Made by a program: the position numbers and the translations under genes. DNA of 37,226 nt, from positions 1 to 37,226 of the IMG/VR virus record IMGVR_UViG_3300022074_004935. The stretch is one strand, 5' to 3'. Source of the DNA: a virus. Positions 11,251 to 24,777 of this stretch are shown in pieces. Position 1 is the stretch's first letter, and each line of letters opens with the position of its first letter. The notes beneath the pieces were generated by a model. That model had not been told where the DNA came from. It did no database searches and saw only the letters and a list, made by a program, of their open reading frames with translations.

Positions 11251-11607
11251 TCAATCTCCTTTAATTACTCTATAACTGTCTTCATCAAAATGTTCTGTGG
11301 AAAATTCAAAAAGTTCAGATGGTTCGACTGCAATCATCTGATGTCTCAGTCCACGATAGATGTGAAATTTATCTCCTGGTTCTAGGATACAGTCATTTGC
11401 TTTTGCTAAGTCATCACTATCACCATAGTATAAAAGTATTCTACCAGACTGCAGATAAAATGTTTCATCCTTTAAGTTATGATAGTGCCAAGAGCATCTC
11501 TTCCCCTCATCAAAGAAAAGGAGTTTACCACAATACTCCTCAGTATTGACAATCCATTTTTCATATCCCCATCCTTTAGAGACATGTTTAATTTCCGAAG
11601 AAGTCAT
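11251..11607 (-). CDS. Single-domain cupin (sugar-phosphate isomerase-like)
   Basis: About 118 residues from the ATG at 11607, chosen because AAAGGA lies about ten bases before it; an upstream in-frame start at 11628 has no such site. Motif 1, CSWHYHNLKDETFYLQSG, has the His-x-His...Glu metal ligands, and motif 2, PGDKFHIYRGLRHQMIA, has the final His. It resembles the C-terminal domain of type II phosphomannose isomerase/GDP-mannose pyrophosphorylase. A role as an isomerase or epimerase feeding the neighbouring nucleotidyltransferase is plausible. GWGYEKW near the start is typical of such proteins. Confidence 0.8.
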   Translation of the reverse strand: MTSSEIKHVSKGWGYEKWIVNTEEYCGKLLFFDEGKRCSWHYHNLKDETFYLQSGRILLYYGDSDDLAKANDCILEPGDKFHIYRGLRHQMIAVEPSELFEFSTEHFDEDSYRVIKGD

Positions 11608-11917
11608 CAGAGTGGATTCCTTTATCATCTATGTAGTAGTCTGCTGCAGGTTTTCCAAGAAATAATTGATGATACTTACATCCCCACAAACTTAATTGTA
11701 TCTCAGTAAACTCATAAAATTCTTTCGTTGCCAAATCCACAATATTATTGTACCGACCCATTCCTCTGGCAGTCAGATATACAATAGTGTGACCTTCATC
11801 ATATAGTTTATTTATTTTATCAATACGATCCTGAATTGGTAATGCCTGCTCATACCTCATCTTATCTGTAGGACCAGGAGTGCATATAGTACCGTCGATA
11901 TCAATCACATATCTCAT
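11588..11917 (-). CDS. Small HAD-family phosphatase, copy 2
   Basis: 109 residues, paralogous to 7633-7944. Motif I is VIDIDGTIC, motif II the Thr of VYLTARGMG, and the C-terminal LGKPAADYYIDDKG carries the motif III Lys and motif IV acids. Its position directly after the heptose kinase and nucleotidyltransferase genes fits a GmhB-like step, removing the 7-phosphate between kinase and nucleotidyl transfer. That role is inference; classical GmhB is longer and has a zinc loop that I do not see here. Confidence 0.85.
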   Translation of the reverse strand: MRYVIDIDGTICTPGPTDKMRYEQALPIQDRIDKINKLYDEGHTIVYLTARGMGRYNNIVDLATKEFYEFTEIQLSLWGCKYHQLFLGKPAADYYIDDKGIHSDDFFGN

Positions 11918-12653
11918 TTACATCCCTCTCAGATAATACATAGGTTCCAAAATGTGTTACAGCAATCGCAGCTGCTTTATTTGCATACGGTATTGCTTTC
12001 TCTATTTTAGCATACAAGAGATAAAAGTAAACAAGTGCAGATAAGAAAGTGTCGCCAGCACCACAAACATCAAATACTCCTACTCCAACTCCTGGATAGT
12101 TTTTTCCTTGATAGTCTGCTCCATTAGAACCCTTAGTCATAATAAGATTGTCACAATTTTTTTCAATCAGTTTATCATATTCATCTTCATTAATTTTAAT
12201 GTATGCTCCATCAGACGGTAGTTTCGTTTTTTTACTATCAATAAAGACAGGTCCATCAAACCACTCAACTAGTTCAAACATTCTCTCAGTTGTAATAAAT
12301 CCCTTATCATAATCCGATATGACAAGGGCATCAAAGTTATCTTCTGGTAGATCATAATCAAGAGGTTTATTAGAATCCTCCACGTCAACTCTAAGAAGTT
12401 GTTGGTTATATCTTTCATCAATAAATCTACGTTTAACAATCTTTTCTTCCTGAGTAAGAATGTAAACCTCAACTCCAAATGACATAAGATTTTCTCTTAC
12501 ATTCCATGCCATTCCTTTCTGAGTTTCTACTCTAGTTTTCTTAAGAATAGGTACTGGTGCTTCTGGATTGAGTCTTTCACATACTCCATAAACATATTCA
12601 TCGGTACAACTATCTCCGATCAATAATACTTTGAATTGTTTTTGTTGTGGCAT
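11901..12653 (-). CDS. hldA: PfkB-family heptose kinase (HldE N-domain type)
   Basis: About 250 residues. The start is ATG at 12653; a GTG at 12659 is less likely. The HldE kinase pattern is present: LLIGDSCTDEYVYG, RLNPEAPVPI (a near-exact HldE phrase), ALVISDYDKGF, and the PfkB signature DVCGAGDTF near the C terminus with catalytic Asp. It phosphorylates heptose 7-phosphate at C1 in ADP- or GDP-heptose synthesis. It is some 60 residues shorter than HldE kinase domains, and the usual GGAANV is replaced by KGMAWNV. It overlaps the nucleotidyltransferase gene by 44 bases. Confidence 0.85.
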   Translation of the reverse strand: MPQQKQFKVLLIGDSCTDEYVYGVCERLNPEAPVPILKKTRVETQKGMAWNVRENLMSFGVEVYILTQEEKIVKRRFIDERYNQQLLRVDVEDSNKPLDYDLPEDNFDALVISDYDKGFITTERMFELVEWFDGPVFIDSKKTKLPSDGAYIKINEDEYDKLIEKNCDNLIMTKGSNGADYQGKNYPGVGVGVFDVCGAGDTFLSALVYFYLLYAKIEKAIPYANKAAAIAVTHFGTYVLSERDVNEICD

Positions 12654-13011
12654 AATCACCTATTCGATCAAAGAATCTAAGTTCAGCAGCATAGTAAGAT
12701 CCAATTACAGACTTTCCTTTCCAGTCTGATCCTACAATCATTATATCAGGTTTATATGATTTGATCATACATTCTAACTCTTCGTCACACGAAAAAGTAT
12801 CGACACCATCTACTGCTTTTAAATTTTCAAGAAAAAACTTTCTTTCTTCTTGACTATGTATAGGTCTGGTAGGACCTTTCTTTTCCTTTACTCTATCATC
12901 CGTATCAATCCCAACTAATAAAAAGTCTCCCAAACTTTTTGCATAGTTTAGGAGTTCAATGTGTCCTCGATGTAGAATATCAAACGTTCCGTTGACAAAG
13001 ATATGTTTCAT
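12610..13011 (-). CDS. hldC: Heptose-phosphate nucleotidyltransferase (HldE C-domain type)
   Basis: About 133 residues from the ATG at 13011. The cytidylyltransferase-fold signatures are GTFDILHRGHIELL (HxGH) at residues 8-21, GIDTDDRVKEKKG, RPIHSQEER and the later IVGSDWKGK, all as in the HldE/RfaE adenylyltransferase domain. The C-terminal TTKTIQSII replaces the usual STT-x-I block closely. It activates heptose 1-phosphate with a nucleotide. In most proteobacteria it is fused to the kinase; here it is a separate gene just upstream of it, and the overlap suggests coupled translation. Confidence 0.88.
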   Translation of the reverse strand: MKHIFVNGTFDILHRGHIELLNYAKSLGDFLLVGIDTDDRVKEKKGPTRPIHSQEERKFFLENLKAVDGVDTFSCDEELECMIKSYKPDIMIVGSDWKGKSVIGSYYAAELRFFDRIGDYATTKTIQSIIDRR

Positions 13012-13825
13012 AGACTTTACGAATTCCATTTACTAAACCAGTATATTCAATAGGCAAATTACTTGATTTTCCAACATATGGGAATATGGGATGCTGTCCT
13101 TCAGATTGAATGTCAACCTTATAAGGTCCTAGATGATTAATAATCTCAGCAATATCACTGAGCATGTACTTACGATCGTAAACACAGTTCACATCTTTTG
13201 GTCCATAATTACCGTCAAGATAATACTCAATAATCTTGTAGAGATCGTCAGCAAAGATAAAATCCATCTTCCGATCTTTGATAAGTCGAATAGGTTTCTT
13301 GTCAATGTATTGATTGATGTTAGTGTTAAAGAATCGTGTGCTCTCCTCATGCTCACCAAAACATCCAAAGATGCGGAGGTTCACACCCTTTGGATTATCT
13401 AATACACGTTTGGCAATAACATATTTTGAAAATCCATATGGATCACTTGGAATAACTTTACCAAAGTCCTCTGGTGAGGGTTCATCAACGGGAGCAGGAC
13501 GACCATATGATGCACCACTATCCAAATTGATGAACATGTCAGTCTGATCAACATACTTATACAGGGTCTCAAACATATTGAGATTAGTATACAGAACTCT
13601 ATAATCATCATCAAGGTCTCTTCTACCACCGACAATGGCAGCATGAATGATTGCATCATAGTGTTGACCATCATCAAATAGAGTAGCAACTTCTTCATCA
13701 ACTTGAAGACGAATCTGAGTTGATCTGGGTCTAACTACCTCATATCCTGCCTTCTGAATGAAGGGAATAATCTGACGGCCAATAAAACCATTACCACCAG
13801 TGAAAAGAATCTTTTTACTTGTCAT
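12980..13825 (-). CDS. NAD-dependent epimerase/reductase (extended SDR)
   Basis: 281 residues with GGNGFIGRQ at residues 9-17 (NAD-binding), IIHAAIVGG, LDSGASYG as the catalytic Ser segment and YGFSK as Tyr-x3-Lys. It belongs to the nucleotide-sugar epimerase/GDP-fucose synthase/HldD-like group. Its place directly upstream of the heptose nucleotidyltransferase suggests it modifies the activated heptose (an HldD- or ketoreductase-like step), but a 4-keto-sugar reductase for the PanB/ThDP/E1 branch is equally possible. It overlaps both neighbours (11 and 32 bases). Confidence 0.85.
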   Translation of the reverse strand: MTSKKILFTGGNGFIGRQIIPFIQKAGYEVVRPRSTQIRLQVDEEVATLFDDGQHYDAIIHAAIVGGRRDLDDDYRVLYTNLNMFETLYKYVDQTDMFINLDSGASYGRPAPVDEPSPEDFGKVIPSDPYGFSKYVIAKRVLDNPKGVNLRIFGCFGEHEESTRFFNTNINQYIDKKPIRLIKDRKMDFIFADDLYKIIEYYLDGNYGPKDVNCVYDRKYMLSDIAEIINHLGPYKVDIQSEGQHPIFPYVGKSSNLPIEYTGLVNGIRKVYETYLCQRNV

Positions 13826-14681
13826 GTTTCCAACCTGCTCCTTGTCCTAAAAGTTTTTCAAGTTCTTCGTCTTTGATCTCATAGAAGTTCTCTTGTGCAG
13901 GGAACTGAAGATCACGGACCTCATTAACATAATCAGTGAGAGCAGACTGAATCATTTGACCTGCTTCACAATATCGTTTCACAAACTTAGATTTAAACTC
14001 CCAGAAAAGTCCAACCAAGTCATGCATAATAACCAACTGACCATCAACTCTGTCGCCAGCACCAATACCATATACTGGAATTTGAAGATTGGTTGCAATC
14101 ATCTCAGCAGACTCTCTAGGCATACCTTCAAGAAGAAGGAAAGTACATCCAGCATCTTGTAGACGCAGAGCTTGATCAAGAATAACTTTTGCTTGGTCAG
14201 CAGTCTTTCCCTGAACACGATACCCGCCCAGTTTTGCACGGGTATGTGGAGTCAATCCTAGGTGACTCATCACCATAATACCAGAATCACAGATTGCCTT
14301 GATACGTTCTACCATACAACCTTCAACCTTCACAGCATCCATACCTGCTTTGATAAAGTCTCCCGCATTTCTTACTGCTTCTTCATTAGAGATTTGATAT
14401 GACATGTAAGGCATATCACCTACAGTGAATGCACGGCTAGAACCACGGGACACTGCTCCAGCAGAACGAAGCATATCATCCATAGTCACTGGGATGGTGC
14501 TCTTGTACCCTAGAGTAGTCATACCAAGAGAATCACCAACAAGAATCCAATCAACACCAGCATTATCCGCCATTAATGCTTGTGGATAATCATATGCAGT
14601 AACACCAACAGTCTTTACATTGTTCTTTTTTTGTTTGCGTAACTTTAGAATAGTTACCTTATCTTTATTATCAGCAGGCAT
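13815..14681 (-). CDS. panB: PanB-like ketopantoate hydroxymethyltransferase
   Basis: 288 residues, about the normal PanB length. Signature blocks in order: VTAYDYPQALMADNAGVD, VGDSLGMTTLGY (metal Asp at 50), PVTMDDML, VGDMPYMSY (Asp 89), DAVKVEG (Lys 118), MSHLGLTPH, LLLEGMP (catalytic-type Glu 185), YGIGAGDRVDGQ and HDLVGL. All the residues I expect in the active site are present, so it is probably an active enzyme moving a hydroxymethyl group from methylene-tetrahydrofolate to a 2-keto acid. The first step of pantothenate/CoA synthesis is the classical role. Its place between a sugar SDR and a ThDP enzyme suggests it may serve glycan synthesis instead. Confidence 0.92.
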   Translation of the reverse strand: MPADNKDKVTILKLRKQKKNNVKTVGVTAYDYPQALMADNAGVDWILVGDSLGMTTLGYKSTIPVTMDDMLRSAGAVSRGSSRAFTVGDMPYMSYQISNEEAVRNAGDFIKAGMDAVKVEGCMVERIKAICDSGIMVMSHLGLTPHTRAKLGGYRVQGKTADQAKVILDQALRLQDAGCTFLLLEGMPRESAEMIATNLQIPVYGIGAGDRVDGQLVIMHDLVGLFWEFKSKFVKRYCEAGQMIQSALTDYVNEVRDLQFPAQENFYEIKDEELEKLLGQGAGWKHDK

Positions 14682-14682
14682 A

Positions 14683-16368
14683 TTAGTCTAAGGGCTTAAT
14701 AATCATGTTATCATAAAATTCCTTTCTTGACAAGAAAGGATACATATCTTCTAAAGGTGGTGCGCTAATCGTACCATCTGCATTTTTTCTACCTTGCATC
14801 GTAGGAACAACTTCTTGACATCTCTCACAAAGAACCTCACATATAATAGGACCACCATAGTCAAGAGTAGTTTGGACTGCATGGTCTAAACCTTTTGCAT
14901 CAGCATAAATGTGCTGAATACCAAAACTCCTTACCACATCACGGATGCTTGGGATGGAGACACCACTTTCAGCATCTGTTCCAATTTCCCTACCCTCAAA
15001 GAATTTCTTTTGAGTTGTACGAATAGAGAGGTATCCATCATTATTCCATACAAACAACTTGATAGGAAGATTGTAGTGTTTAATAGTTTGCAGTTCCTGA
15101 AGGTTCATCATAAACGAACCATCACCCGTCACACCGATCACTTCACCGTCTTTTGCAAATGATGCTCCAATACATGCAGGGATAGTAAATCCCATCTCTG
15201 CCTGAGAACTAGAGGTGATATACCTCTGCTGTTCCTTAATATGAGTTGCTTGAGAGCAAACATAAAACGCAGAACCAGCATCTGAAATTACCACATCGTT
15301 AGAACGTTTACGGTCATTCAAAACCTTCATGAAGTAGTAAAGATCTACTTTCTCAGATGGATTTATATCAGGACAGACTGGCCATTGATCCCTCCAACAC
15401 AAACATGTTTCATTCCATTCACTTCTAGGTCTAGAGAATCTAGATGTGTTAAAGAAATCTTTAGCATCACGATGAACAAATCGATCAATCTTTACAGTTT
15501 CTTTCTCATGTTCATCCTTATCAATATCAACCACAACTACCTTTGCTTCTCTTGCAAACGTCGTGTAGTTATATCCAGTCACGGGTACAGGAAGACGACA
15601 TCCAATGACCAATAGCAGATCACAATTCTGCATCGCAAAGTTTCCAGCACGCGTGCCTTTGACACCTACCCTACCAATATAATTAGCATCATCTGATGAG
15701 ATTAAATCTACTGCATTGTATGATGTAACAACTGGAATGTTGGTTCTCAAGACAAAGTTTTTAAATTCATCTCTAGCATCAGCACAGTTGATACCATTTC
15801 CAGCAAGAATCAAAGGTCTTTCTGCTTTCTTTACAAGATCCTCAACAGTAATATACTCAGCACCTTGTACGTCCATAGGAATGTCAACCCAAACAGGACC
15901 AGGACGACCATGAGTTGCAATGCGTATCGCATCTTTCATTACATCATCAATATCTTGAGGGTCATTAACTACCACTGCATACTTAGTGATAGGTTTTACA
16001 ATATCAATAATATTTGCTTCCTGTACACCAAGATTTCTGACACCCTCTGGTGCCATGTGAGGTCGGTTTACATTACCAGACACAAAGATAACAGGAACAC
16101 TATCCTGCCATGCATCTAGAAGTCCTGTGATGGCATTTGTACCACCACATCCTGTAGTTACATTAACTGCTGCCAGACTATTATTATACTTAGCATATGC
16201 AACAGCACCCATTGCTGATGCTTGTTCATGATGATTACAAATTGGTTTGATCTTAGAATGTGCTGCTACAGCATCATTCAAAAACATTGCTCCACCACCA
16301 GTTATAAGAAAGATGTGTTTACATCCTGCCTTATAGATTTGGTCAATCACATAATCTGCAACTCTCAT
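14683..16368 (-). CDS. ThDP-dependent enzyme, acetolactate synthase/YerE-like
   Basis: 561 residues with the three-domain layout of acetohydroxyacid synthase relatives. In the N domain, HHEQASAMGAVAYAK carries the ThDP-activating Glu at 48. The middle domain (about 185-300) has VGVKGTRAGNFAMQNCDLLLVIG. The C domain has the ThDP/Mg motif GDGSFMMNLQELQ (415-427) ending with the NN at 442-443. Such enzymes decarboxylate pyruvate and add the two-carbon unit to another keto compound. YerE, which builds the branched sugar yersiniose, is a member. Next to an E1-type 3-dehydrase (four-base overlap) a YerE-like role fits best; a 2-keto-acid role with PanB is the alternative. Confidence 0.85.
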   Translation of the reverse strand: MRVADYVIDQIYKAGCKHIFLITGGGAMFLNDAVAAHSKIKPICNHHEQASAMGAVAYAKYNNSLAAVNVTTGCGGTNAITGLLDAWQDSVPVIFVSGNVNRPHMAPEGVRNLGVQEANIIDIVKPITKYAVVVNDPQDIDDVMKDAIRIATHGRPGPVWVDIPMDVQGAEYITVEDLVKKAERPLILAGNGINCADARDEFKNFVLRTNIPVVTSYNAVDLISSDDANYIGRVGVKGTRAGNFAMQNCDLLLVIGCRLPVPVTGYNYTTFAREAKVVVVDIDKDEHEKETVKIDRFVHRDAKDFFNTSRFSRPRSEWNETCLCWRDQWPVCPDINPSEKVDLYYFMKVLNDRKRSNDVVISDAGSAFYVCSQATHIKEQQRYITSSSQAEMGFTIPACIGASFAKDGEVIGVTGDGSFMMNLQELQTIKHYNLPIKLFVWNNDGYLSIRTTQKKFFEGREIGTDAESGVSIPSIRDVVRSFGIQHIYADAKGLDHAVQTTLDYGGPIICEVLCERCQEVVPTMQGRKNADGTISAPPLEDMYPFLSRKEFYDNMIIKPLD

Positions 16369-17636
16369 TTCTCAAAAGAATCAACAACAGTTCCAACATA
16401 ATCAATCATATCCTCAGTGATCGTAGGAGAACAACCAACAAAGAATACTAAGTCAAGCACCTTACAAGCATTCGGATAATTCCGATAGTAATCAAGGTGA
16501 CGATATCCAGGATGCATCAGAATATTACCAGCAAAATAGTTACGAGTCTGAACTTTATTATCTTCCAGGTGTTTTGTTAGTCTAACCTTAGTATCTGCAC
16601 TATCACAGATAATAGGAACACCAAACCAACTAGTCTCTGCTTTGGGCAATTCGTTTACACTGCGGACTCCAGGGATGCGTTCAAAGATTTCCTGCATCAG
16701 AACCTTATTCTTACGACGCAGACGATGAATCTCATCTTGCTTAGTCAGTTGCACAGTACCAATAGCACCTTGGAAATCCATAGGTTTCAGATTGTACCCC
16801 ATCTGAGAGTAAACATACTTGTGATCGATAATACCATCATAGTTTTCGATCCACTTATCAAATCGCTTACCACATGTTCCACATGCAAGGAGATTTTGTG
16901 TACCAACACAGTAACAATCACGCCCCCACCATGCCAAACTGCGGGCAATATTGATCAGTTCCTCATCATCGGAGGAGATCATACCACCCTCACCTGTGCA
17001 GATATGATGAGCAGGATAAAAAGAACAAGAAGCAGAAATAGAGTGATCAGTAAGAAAAGAACCATTCCACTTACTACCTAAACTATCACAGTTGTCAGAG
17101 ATCAACATGATCTTATTACGATCACAAATACCCACAATCTCATCAACATCATATGGGTTGCCAAGAACAGGAGAAGAAAAGATACCGCGAGTCTTAGTAG
17201 AAATCTTTTCCTCAATTTCTTCCAGGTTCCAGTTTAGATCAGAGAAGTCAATATCAACAAAGATTGGTTTTAGACCATTCTGAACAATAGGGGCAATGGT
17301 AGTAGGAAAACCAACGCATGATACAATGATCTCATCACCATCCTGCCAACCAAACCGTTTCTTCAAAGCAGCAATCATAATCAAGTTGGCAGAACTACCA
17401 GAGTTTACCATTAAGGAATATCCTTTATTAAATTGCTTAGAAAATTTTCTCTCAAACTCATACACCTTTTCACCAGATGCCAACCACTTACCATTCAAAA
17501 GTCCGTTGACAGCTGCTCCCAACTCTTGATTATCCCAGTAAGGACCAGAATAGTAAACTGGGTTGCCTGGTTCCCATTTACTATTAGCAAAATAAGGAGG
17601 GTTCACACCCTCAAGTAGTGCTTCAATATCAACCAT
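16365..17636 (-). CDS. rfbH: CDP-4-keto-6-deoxyglucose 3-dehydrase (RfbH/E1 type)
   Basis: About 423 residues from the ATG at 17636; GAGG sits six to seven bases before it, and the in-frame ATG at 17648 overlaps this site. It is a DegT/DnrJ/EryC1-fold protein, but the usual PLP Lys is replaced: the segment reads SFYPAHHICTGEGG, with His as in the dehydrases RfbH/E1 and ColD. Cysteines follow in RDCYCVGT and ACGTCGKRF, then IDHKYVYSQMGYNLK, as in E1 with its [2Fe-2S] cluster. E1 removes the C3 hydroxyl of a CDP-4-keto-6-deoxy sugar using PMP. It needs a reductase (E3), which I do not see in the window. Confidence 0.9.
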   Translation of the reverse strand: MVDIEALLEGVNPPYFANSKWEPGNPVYYSGPYWDNQELGAAVNGLLNGKWLASGEKVYEFERKFSKQFNKGYSLMVNSGSSANLIMIAALKKRFGWQDGDEIIVSCVGFPTTIAPIVQNGLKPIFVDIDFSDLNWNLEEIEEKISTKTRGIFSSPVLGNPYDVDEIVGICDRNKIMLISDNCDSLGSKWNGSFLTDHSISASCSFYPAHHICTGEGGMISSDDEELINIARSLAWWGRDCYCVGTQNLLACGTCGKRFDKWIENYDGIIDHKYVYSQMGYNLKPMDFQGAIGTVQLTKQDEIHRLRRKNKVLMQEIFERIPGVRSVNELPKAETSWFGVPIICDSADTKVRLTKHLEDNKVQTRNYFAGNILMHPGYRHLDYYRNYPNACKVLDLVFFVGCSPTITEDMIDYVGTVVDSFEK

Positions 17637-18486
17637 TTTGAACCTCATTCAAGTAGTCATTAACTTCATCAGATACGACAGAGGACAACCAATTTCTAAA
17701 TCCACCTGCTCCTCTATTTAATTGTGCTGCAGCATGTCCACCAGCTTGGTGCATGACTTTGATACACATCGGTTCCCCTGTTTTAGGATCGTCAAGGTAT
17801 AGTCTATCACATTTTACGTAAATTTGCGACCAACTTTCCCAATGATTATCGTTCTTACCCCAATGATTAGAGATACCATAGGAAACATTTGATCCCATGG
17901 CATCTACAATCTTAGTAGTATATTCTCCTGAGTGAAATATTTGATTCAGGGTATCTTGTTCATCACCAATACCATGAGCATAAGGATTAACTTCTGTTTT
18001 AATCTTGGCAGACTGCTTGTTTACATCGTGCCAGTCTACCCAGAACTCTTTGTTGTTAGCACCAATCATGCCAGCATTAATGAAGTTTTGAATTGGAATC
18101 TGCTGACCATTTCCAAAGGGTGGAAGATGAGTAATCGTTATACCAAAGTCATGTCCAGATGCTTTATCTAAAGAGTTATTATTTCGGACTCCAATAATAT
18201 CTTCTTCACTCTCAAAGAACTCAGTCATTGGTCCAGTGACAACAGCATCAGCATCCAAATGAACAACCATATCGTATTCCTCAACAAAAGGAAGACAAGT
18301 AGCTGCCATCATCCAGATAGGTTTCATCCATGGCATTTCGGAATGTATTTGCTCAGTCATCTTTGTGTCAAAGATAACGTGATCCACCTCTGGATGAAAA
18401 TGTTTAATTGAGTTAGCTAGTTTTTCTACACCCAAAAGTTCTGCGTAATCATCAGTACACCAAGTAGAAACTAAAATCTTTTTCAT
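17629..18486 (-). CDS. GT8-like glycosyltransferase
   Basis: 285 residues. The first half has a GT-A layout: start strand KKILVSTWCTDDYAELL, MVVHLDADAVVTGPM with the metal-binding DxD, and FINAGMIGANNKEFW, the usual substrate-side strand of GT8/nucleotide-diphospho-sugar transferases. The later GIGDEQDTLNQIFH segment is also typical. Donor and acceptor unknown. It overlaps the methyltransferase gene upstream by four bases and the E1 gene downstream by eight. Confidence 0.75.
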   Translation of the reverse strand: MKKILVSTWCTDDYAELLGVEKLANSIKHFHPEVDHVIFDTKMTEQIHSEMPWMKPIWMMAATCLPFVEEYDMVVHLDADAVVTGPMTEFFESEEDIIGVRNNNSLDKASGHDFGITITHLPPFGNGQQIPIQNFINAGMIGANNKEFWVDWHDVNKQSAKIKTEVNPYAHGIGDEQDTLNQIFHSGEYTTKIVDAMGSNVSYGISNHWGKNDNHWESWSQIYVKCDRLYLDDPKTGEPMCIKVMHQAGGHAAAQLNRGAGGFRNWLSSVVSDEVNDYLNEVQNG

Positions 18487-24198: not shown

Positions 24199-24295
24199 CA
24201 CTTTCGTAGTAGAAATTATCACCCCTATAAAGTCCAAAGGTTATAGTAAGAAGTACAAATGGAATTGATATCCACAGTAAGACAGTACCTAACAT
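24167..24295 (-). CDS. 42-residue single-helix membrane microprotein
   Basis: Starts MLGTVLLWISIPFVLLTITF, one clear membrane helix, followed by a polar, acidic tail rich in Asp, Tyr and Gly. Its ATG overlaps the stop of the gnd remnant by seven bases, and its end overlaps the start region of the next gene. It is in a different frame from its neighbours. Size and shape recall small photosystem or cytochrome-complex subunits, but I see no family match. Confidence 0.6.
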   Translation of the reverse strand: MLGTVLLWISIPFVLLTITFGLYRGDNFYYESDDYDGNGTAH

Positions 24296-24777
24296 TTAAC
24301 GTTACCTGGTGATAAGGATTGAAAAATTTTTGAGCATGTATTGATAGCATGAGGTGCTCCATACACACCAGAGAAGATGTATGAGATACCCAACTTAGAG
24401 CAATACAGTTCCAGTTCCTGACATTTTGTTATGTCACTATTACCATAATCTATGATAATATCTCCTTCACCAAGGAGTGGCAGTAACTCATCAATAGTAT
24501 CCTCTATTAATTCGGCAGGGATAACAAGTTGAAAGATACCAGGTGATTTGATATACACAGTCTCACCAGATTTCTCTCCGTAGATACTTTCTACTCTTTT
24601 AACTACTTGAACAAGGTTTTCCAAAGAATCTACAACCTCAGTAATATACCCGTTGTTTGCTAATTCTTGTGCCCTACTAAAGTTTTTTCCATATCCATAA
24701 ACTTCAATACCTTCCTTTAGCATACGACGAGATATACCCTCTCCCATCATTCCTATTCCGATTAATCCTACTTTCAT
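24289..24777 (-). CDS. gnd: Truncated 6-phosphogluconate dehydrogenase-like protein
   Basis: 162 residues. The N-terminal NADP-binding motif GLIGIGMMGEGISRRMLKEG and the later DYGNSDITKCQELELYC and FSGVYGAPHA correspond to the coenzyme domain of 6-phosphogluconate dehydrogenase. The family is about 300-480 residues, and its helical catalytic and dimerisation domain is absent. The ORF ends with an apparently unrelated tail. Intact cyanophage gnd is thought to feed NADPH and pentose for phage DNA. This copy probably has lost that activity and may be a remnant or have acquired another function. It overlaps the gene upstream by four bases. Confidence 0.75.
   Translation of the reverse strand: MKVGLIGIGMMGEGISRRMLKEGIEVYGYGKNFSRAQELANNGYITEVVDSLENLVQVVKRVESIYGEKSGETVYIKSPGIFQLVIPAELIEDTIDELLPLLGEGDIIIDYGNSDITKCQELELYCSKLGISYIFSGVYGAPHAINTCSKIFQSLSPGNVKC

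Follow-up and report, generated by a model that had tools for sequence, protein, structure and literature searches.

What does a cyanophage build with a sugar dehydrase, a thiamine diphosphate (ThDP) enzyme and a relative of the ketopantoate hydroxymethyltransferase PanB encoded side by side? The question is raised by an IMG/VR virus record of 37,226 bases (IMGVR_UViG_3300022074_004935), which we analyzed over its whole length and refer to as the window. Based on the presence of NrdA, NrdB, DNA primase, a PstS gene, tRNAs and a 6-phosphogluconate-dehydrogenase-like fragment, its source is a T4-like marine cyanophage. The glycan genes form one continuous minus-strand block, from ~2.3 to 22.3 kb. 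A preliminary description had proposed that the dehydrase and the ThDP enzyme belong to a yersiniose-type pathway. We suggest, with a probability of roughly 0.72, that the genes at 12980–17648 constitute a phage module for a C-branched 3,6-dideoxy sugar nucleotide, with substrates, step order and product deduced from sequence. Rather than leading to yersiniose itself, the pathway probably follows the logic of erwiniose synthesis, with a new enzyme to supply the donor. The four predicted components are:

16365–17648, minus strand: RfbH/E1-type nucleoside diphosphate (NDP)-4-keto-6-deoxyhexose 3-dehydrase (pyridoxamine 5′-phosphate, [2Fe-2S]), 427 amino acids; His215, Cys187/245/247/259
14683–16368, minus strand: YerE/JanthE-like ThDP carboligase, 561 amino acids; Pfam domains, PDB matches, tree
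13815–14681, minus strand: PanB paralogue (ketopantoate hydroxymethyltransferase family), 288 amino acids; PF02548, TIGR00222, catalytic residues
12980–13825, minus strand: extended short-chain dehydrogenase/reductase (SDR), proposed reductase of the branched keto-sugar; S103, Y130, K134, fold matches

The transcription order is E1, ThDP gene, PanB, SDR, nucleotidyltransferase, kinase, HAD phosphatase and cupin. The E1 and ThDP open reading frames (ORFs) share 4 bases (16365–16368), PanB starts 2 bases past the end of the ThDP gene, and the SDR ORF overlaps that of PanB.

The dehydrase matched Yersinia E1 (3bcx) with 259.6 bits, as compared with 188.3 bits for ColD (2gms). In the alignment to Yersinia E1, His215, within YPAHHICTGEGG, occupies the position of the pyridoxal phosphate lysine. 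The cysteines are spaced C187-X57-C245-X1-C247-X11-C259, while the cluster spacing of 3bcx, as read by us, is C-X57-C-X1-C-X7-C, so that the last gap of the window protein is longer by an insertion of four residues. His215 and the four cysteines do not vary among seven diverse phage homologues, and the [2Fe-2S] cysteine motif is missing from ColD 2gms. In a quick tree, the phage proteins grouped with E1 and bacterial RfbH, away from ColD. An E1 role is thus well supported at the sequence level. The predicted structure was poor (mean predicted local distance difference test score, pLDDT, 68.6) and was not used. Relatives with up to 65% identity were found in cyanophages among 50,697 INPHARED records.

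The ThDP protein contains three Pfam TPP-enzyme domains, and its best match among solved structures was JanthE (8rph, 375 bits), followed at a distance by acetolactate synthases (≤228 bits) and PpYerE (5ahk, 225 bits). JanthE and PpYerE served as the characterized YerE-like references, with sequences taken from printed alignments. A quick tree placed JanthE, the phage proteins and bacterial homologues together in a group of 46 rows (Shimodaira–Hasegawa-like approximate likelihood ratio test, SH-aLRT, 100); PpYerE fell on the acetolactate-synthase side, on long branches that make its placement unsure. The ThDP-activating Glu is kept (NHHEQAS, E48), as is a ThDP-binding motif (GDGSFMMN...NND), and the RFDDR motif of the Escherichia coli and yeast acetolactate synthases is missing (GCRLPVP in the window). 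Scores were below the curated acetolactate synthase cutoffs (best 351 against 738; TIGR00118 313.7 against 538.35), and the sole PHROG match, phrog_11199, is labelled 'unknown'. Many bacterial homologues share clusters with RfbF, RfbG and RfbH. These observations make a YerE-like, ketone-accepting carboligase a well-supported assignment. In several distinct viral contigs (L186:10001–11762, L188, L190, L192 and L193–L198), the enzyme is encoded by two adjacent ORFs (~340 and 250 amino acids), which suggests a true two-subunit form.

Characterized relatives differ in the acyl donor. YerE uses pyruvate, whereas the YerE-like ErwE prefers 4-hydroxy-2-oxo acids, does not use pyruvate, and has CDP (cytidine diphosphate)-4-keto-3,6-dideoxyglucose as its acceptor (PMC12247030). 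JanthE joins short to long 2-oxo acids, including 4-hydroxy-2-oxovalerate, to ketones and aldehydes (PMC12188165).

The 288-residue protein scored 322.9 bits with PF02548 and 277.7 bits with TIGR00222 (cutoff 207.55), and had no PHROG match. The PanB catalytic set (E. coli D45, S46, D84, K112, E114, H136 and E181) is fully kept in the window protein, as D50, S51, D89, K118, E120, H140 and E185, and all seven residues are kept in 21 of 21 ThDP-linked PanBs. In a careful tree, the only one of the three trees built in this way, the ThDP-linked PanBs formed their own clade, separate from 19 housekeeping-type PanBs, including those of the cyanobacterial phylum (ultrafast bootstrap 100/SH-aLRT 99). 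All 21 carry Leu and Ile at E. coli positions 212 and 214, which are Val/Ile and Val in the other PanBs; they also share Leu at position 179 and mostly have Val at position 199. Positions 212, 214 and 179 presumably line the substrate pocket. PanB acts on 2-oxoisovalerate, and an analogue without both methyl groups is an inhibitor, so smaller acids can bind (PMC7770189). A literature search for PanB together with O-antigen, cyanophage or 4-hydroxy-2-oxobutanoate found no precedent. A panB gene with panC and sufB was seen in a record titled as a phage, Microcystis phage MaAM05 (MW495066.1, locus L004); since its PanB groups with the housekeeping PanBs, this stretch may be bacterial DNA.

The SDR keeps Ser103, Tyr130 and Lys134. 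The nearest folds to its predicted model (mean pLDDT 88.6) were the C4 reductase MlghC (7anc, template modelling (TM) score 0.78) and GDP-L-fucose synthase (4bkp, TM 0.81), both of which reduce keto groups of nucleotide sugars. Because identity to these proteins is only ~15%, the fold supports a reductase assignment without proving it.

Much of the preliminary description is borne out by these results: the overlapping ORF pair is present, its motifs (RDCYC and ACGTCGKRF in addition to YPAHHICTGEGG) read as claimed, the dehydrase has a histidine and four cluster cysteines rather than the lysine of an aminotransferase, the ThDP protein groups with JanthE and not with acetolactate synthase in the phylogeny that it had called for, here a quick tree, and a reductase-like SDR lies at 12980–13825. 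E1, ThDP enzyme and SDR do reproduce the order of chemistry that it described, but it overlooked the most distinctive gene, PanB, directly downstream of the ThDP gene. Its statement that no phage was known with the E1–ThDP pair holds for the 50,697 INPHARED records, in which the ThDP protein found only acetolactate-synthase-like matches (~31% or less), as it did among plasmids (~32% identity at best), but not for IMG/VR. There, the ThDP gene is present in 76 loci; the ThDP protein as query yielded 36 loci, and an alignment of seven members 79.

To follow the linkage of the genes, the viral loci, which are fragments and in several cases come from similar phages, were clustered at 90% ThDP identity, giving 38 clusters with flanks. 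E1 was within six genes of the ThDP gene in 36 of the 38, indicating that the pairing is not a matter of chance; SDR was found in 33, PanB in 30 and an RmlB-like dehydratase in 25. In most viral loci, PanB comes immediately after the ThDP gene; among the four module proteins it is the best conserved (86–99% among near relatives). Four distant loci (L033, L036, L041 and L042) keep ThDP, PanB, SDR and E1 in a changed order and without an HldE module. In phages of the window type (L130, L131, L142 and L168), a dehydratase with the TDE motif lies just outside the cassette; this motif is missing from all three SDRs of the window. The phage contig G907 (locus L152), which carries terminase, portal and major head protein genes, has RfbF, RfbG, RfbH, ThDP, PanB and SDR among its phage genes, with scores above the cutoffs (in parentheses) for RfbF, 377 (300), RfbG, 492 (278), and RfbH, 669.4 (423). 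A single phage can therefore encode almost all of the steps that start from glucose 1-phosphate, and in G907 the ThDP–PanB branch is tied to CDP-sugars.

Where PanB is missing from a viral ThDP locus, the adjoining enzyme can be an HpcH-like aldolase (L170, L173), a class I aminotransferase (L178–L182) or Ldh2 (L157, L172). At L173:11757–13665 and in L174, the HpcH-like aldolase beside the ThDP gene is followed by a 385-residue LdpA-like protein with 4Fe-4S domains. In another phage contig (L177:5115–6695), a 526-residue ORF lies between ThDP and PanB.

Bacterial relatives showed a similar variety. Among the first 80 bacterial ThDP loci, none had PanB nearby; an HpcH-like aldolase was present in 19, an aminotransferase in 8, DmpG with or without DmpF in 8, and Ldh2 in 3. 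We also scanned ThDP loci with short flanks in samples of 386 genomes from one phylum and 398 from another, and found PanB beside ThDP only in the genome G203. The combination with PanB is present in dozens of uncultured phages and, among the sampled bacterial genomes, in a single one. The G203 cluster reads RfbF, RfbG (two ORFs), RfbH, SDR, ThDP–PanB, a third ThDP gene and DmpF–DmpG–ThDP; RfbG is broken in two at G203:C1:190661–191744 (L235), through a frameshift or an assembly error. A second, housekeeping-type PanB of this genome is on another contig, and in the PanB tree the cluster copy groups with the phages, while the other groups with the housekeeping PanBs. DmpG-type aldolases join pyruvate and acetaldehyde to form 4-hydroxy-2-oxopentanoate. 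The strongest argument for donor supply by PanB is that in G203 it is placed beside a ThDP gene just as DmpF–DmpG is.

In the proposed pathway, E1, with a host electron donor, would remove the C3 hydroxyl group of an NDP-4-keto-6-deoxyhexose, supplied by the host or by other phage genes. The PanB paralogue would hydroxymethylate a small 2-oxo acid with 5,10-methylenetetrahydrofolate, in the simplest case converting pyruvate to 4-hydroxy-2-oxobutanoate. The ThDP enzyme would decarboxylate this acid and ligate the hydroxyacyl unit to the C4 ketone of the NDP-4-keto-3,6-dideoxyhexose, which would introduce a C3 branch and turn C4 into a tertiary alcohol. Reduction of the remaining ketone would then fall to the SDR, and nearby glycosyltransferases would place the branched sugar into a surface glycan. 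PanB is likely to be the maker of the donor acid; the specific donor, 4-hydroxy-2-oxobutanoate from pyruvate, is a guess that we hold tentatively.

The order E1, YerE-like enzyme and SDR is also that of yersiniose synthesis, and YerE takes pyruvate (PMC12247030), so the ThDP enzyme might instead transfer an acetyl group from pyruvate to the E1 product, with the SDR acting as YerF and PanB as a passenger or in another role. We regard this as unlikely. PanB stands directly after ThDP in most viral loci, forms a clade of its own and is the most conserved protein of the module, as would not be expected of a passenger. The proximity of the ThDP protein to JanthE rather than PpYerE, which lies on the acetolactate-synthase side, also speaks against the yersiniose pathway proper, as put forward in the preliminary description, and a dedicated PanB encoded between ThDP enzyme and SDR implies that the donor is hydroxylated and longer than pyruvate, and that the branch is not an acetyl group. 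Slightly less probable still is a branched-sugar route in which PanB acts after the ThDP enzyme, hydroxymethylating the acetyl branch or, as a separate branch, the sugar itself. The gene order E1–ThDP–PanB–SDR in the window would fit such a sequence, and an acyloin could conceivably bind the metal in the chelating manner of a 2-oxo acid. However, PanB is known to act on a 2-oxo acid (PMC7770189), and the DmpG, HpcH and aminotransferase neighbors of other ThDP genes are enzymes of small acids, in keeping with donor supply.

The family names, acetolactate-synthase-like and PanB, and the PanB score above the TIGR00222 cutoff would suit an auxiliary metabolic role, in which an acetolactate synthase and a ketopantoate synthase supply branched-chain amino acids or pantothenate/CoA and neighbor the sugar genes by chance. 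This reading is very improbable and, in its housekeeping form, was rejected: the ThDP protein lies outside the acetolactate synthases and lacks RFDDR, PanB lies outside the housekeeping PanBs, and linkage to E1 and SDR is conserved. Furthermore, neither panC nor ilvC was found in 18 viral records, which weighs against a vitamin or amino-acid role. A phosphonate pathway (phosphoenolpyruvate mutase, phosphonopyruvate decarboxylase and cytidylyltransferase), suggested by the gene order, was also rejected, because Pfam and NCBIfam identify the 288-residue protein as PanB and the long ThDP protein resembles JanthE.

Several observations weigh against donor supply by PanB for a 3,6-dideoxy sugar. 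No tested donor family was present in 40 of the 80 bacterial ThDP loci, so not every ThDP gene is accompanied by a dedicated donor enzyme, and PanB acting after ligation on an acetyl branch would give the same final product. The natural substrates of JanthE are not established (PMC12188165). The window E1 scored 362.9 bits with the NCBIfam RfbH model PRK15407, under the cutoff of 423 that is exceeded by its phage relatives in L033 (471) and G907; we therefore term it a divergent E1-type protein rather than a certain CDP-specific RfbH. As the preliminary description had stated, no CDP-glucose synthase, 4,6-dehydratase or E3 was recognized in the window (E3 was not searched for beyond it), and RfbF and RfbG are not among the window ORFs. 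With the 4,6-dehydratase, nucleotidyltransferase and E3 missing and E1 under the RfbH cutoff, any assignment of the nucleotide and of the exact sugar is tentative. In L033-type phages, the dehydratase beside E1 comes closest to the dTDP-glucose type (294.5 bits, cutoff 365.1), which likewise makes the nucleotide of the window sugar tentative.

Among known systems, the yersiniose A pathway of Yersinia (E1/E3, YerE and YerF) shares with the phage module the succession of an E1 dehydrase, a ThDP carboligase and a reductase-like SDR. The module differs in its additional PanB, its JanthE-nearer ThDP enzyme and its carriage by a phage, and in lacking the 4,6-dehydratase, RfbF and E3 in the window. 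Erwiniose/caryophyllose-type systems (ErwE, MMAR_2332) are similar in the YerE-like ligation of a hydroxy-functionalized 2-oxo acid to a 4-keto-3,6-dideoxy sugar, and a bacterial relative of the phage ThDP gene is paired with DmpF–DmpG; in the phage, PanB would replace the aldolase as donor maker. The comparison with ErwE is based on its described activity. JanthE (Janthinobacterium sp. HH01), the closest solved ThDP enzyme, has the NNDGYL...TQ region in common with the phage protein, but CDG where the latter has GDG. The solved PanBs (1m3u, 1o66 and 1oy0) belong to the same family and have the seven catalytic residues, whereas the phage type is set apart by its clade, by the substitutions described above and by a C-terminal extension. 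Cyanophage sugar cassettes, such as those of Synechococcus phages S-H68 and RN05-S, contain a 65% identical E1 with related glycosyltransferases and SDRs, but no ThDP or PanB gene was seen there.

Branched deoxy-sugars are rare, and few enzymes form tertiary alcohols from ketones, which gives the ThDP branching enzymes their interest. With a candidate donor enzyme attached to a widespread viral ThDP family, both the donor and the product can be predicted directly. Phages would then be seen to encode almost entire pathways for exotic surface sugars, and a likely misannotation of such genes in virus surveys, as acetolactate synthase and pantothenate synthesis genes, would be corrected. At about even odds, we further propose that a PanB subfamily was recruited from vitamin metabolism, mostly in phages, to make donors for C-branched sugars, that the donor enzyme (PanB, HpcH-type aldolase, aminotransferase or DmpG) is swapped like a cassette, and that the window phage makes an undescribed sugar, for example 4-C-(1,3-dihydroxypropyl)-3,6-dideoxyhexose, that alters the host surface.

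Downstream of the SDR, the following genes were predicted:

12610–13029, minus strand: HldE C-domain-like nucleotidyltransferase; TIGR02199 107.4 bits, under cutoff
11901–12659, minus strand: HldE N-domain-like (PfkB) sugar-phosphate kinase; family models
11588–11917, minus strand: EcbF/BcbF-like HAD (haloacid dehalogenase) phosphatase; family models

Two separate but overlapping genes (11901–13029) encode the HldE-like kinase and nucleotidyltransferase, and are accompanied by those of the HAD phosphatase and the cupin. We considered the kinase, nucleotidyltransferase and HAD as obligatory parts of the branching pathway and rejected this, as they are missing from the E1–ThDP–PanB–SDR loci L025, L030, L031 and L040. 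Together with the cupin, they form a second, separable sugar module, perhaps of the NDP-heptose type. The 6-phosphogluconate-dehydrogenase-like protein (24289–24777, phrog_3646) has 162 amino acids and is far shorter than the full enzyme.

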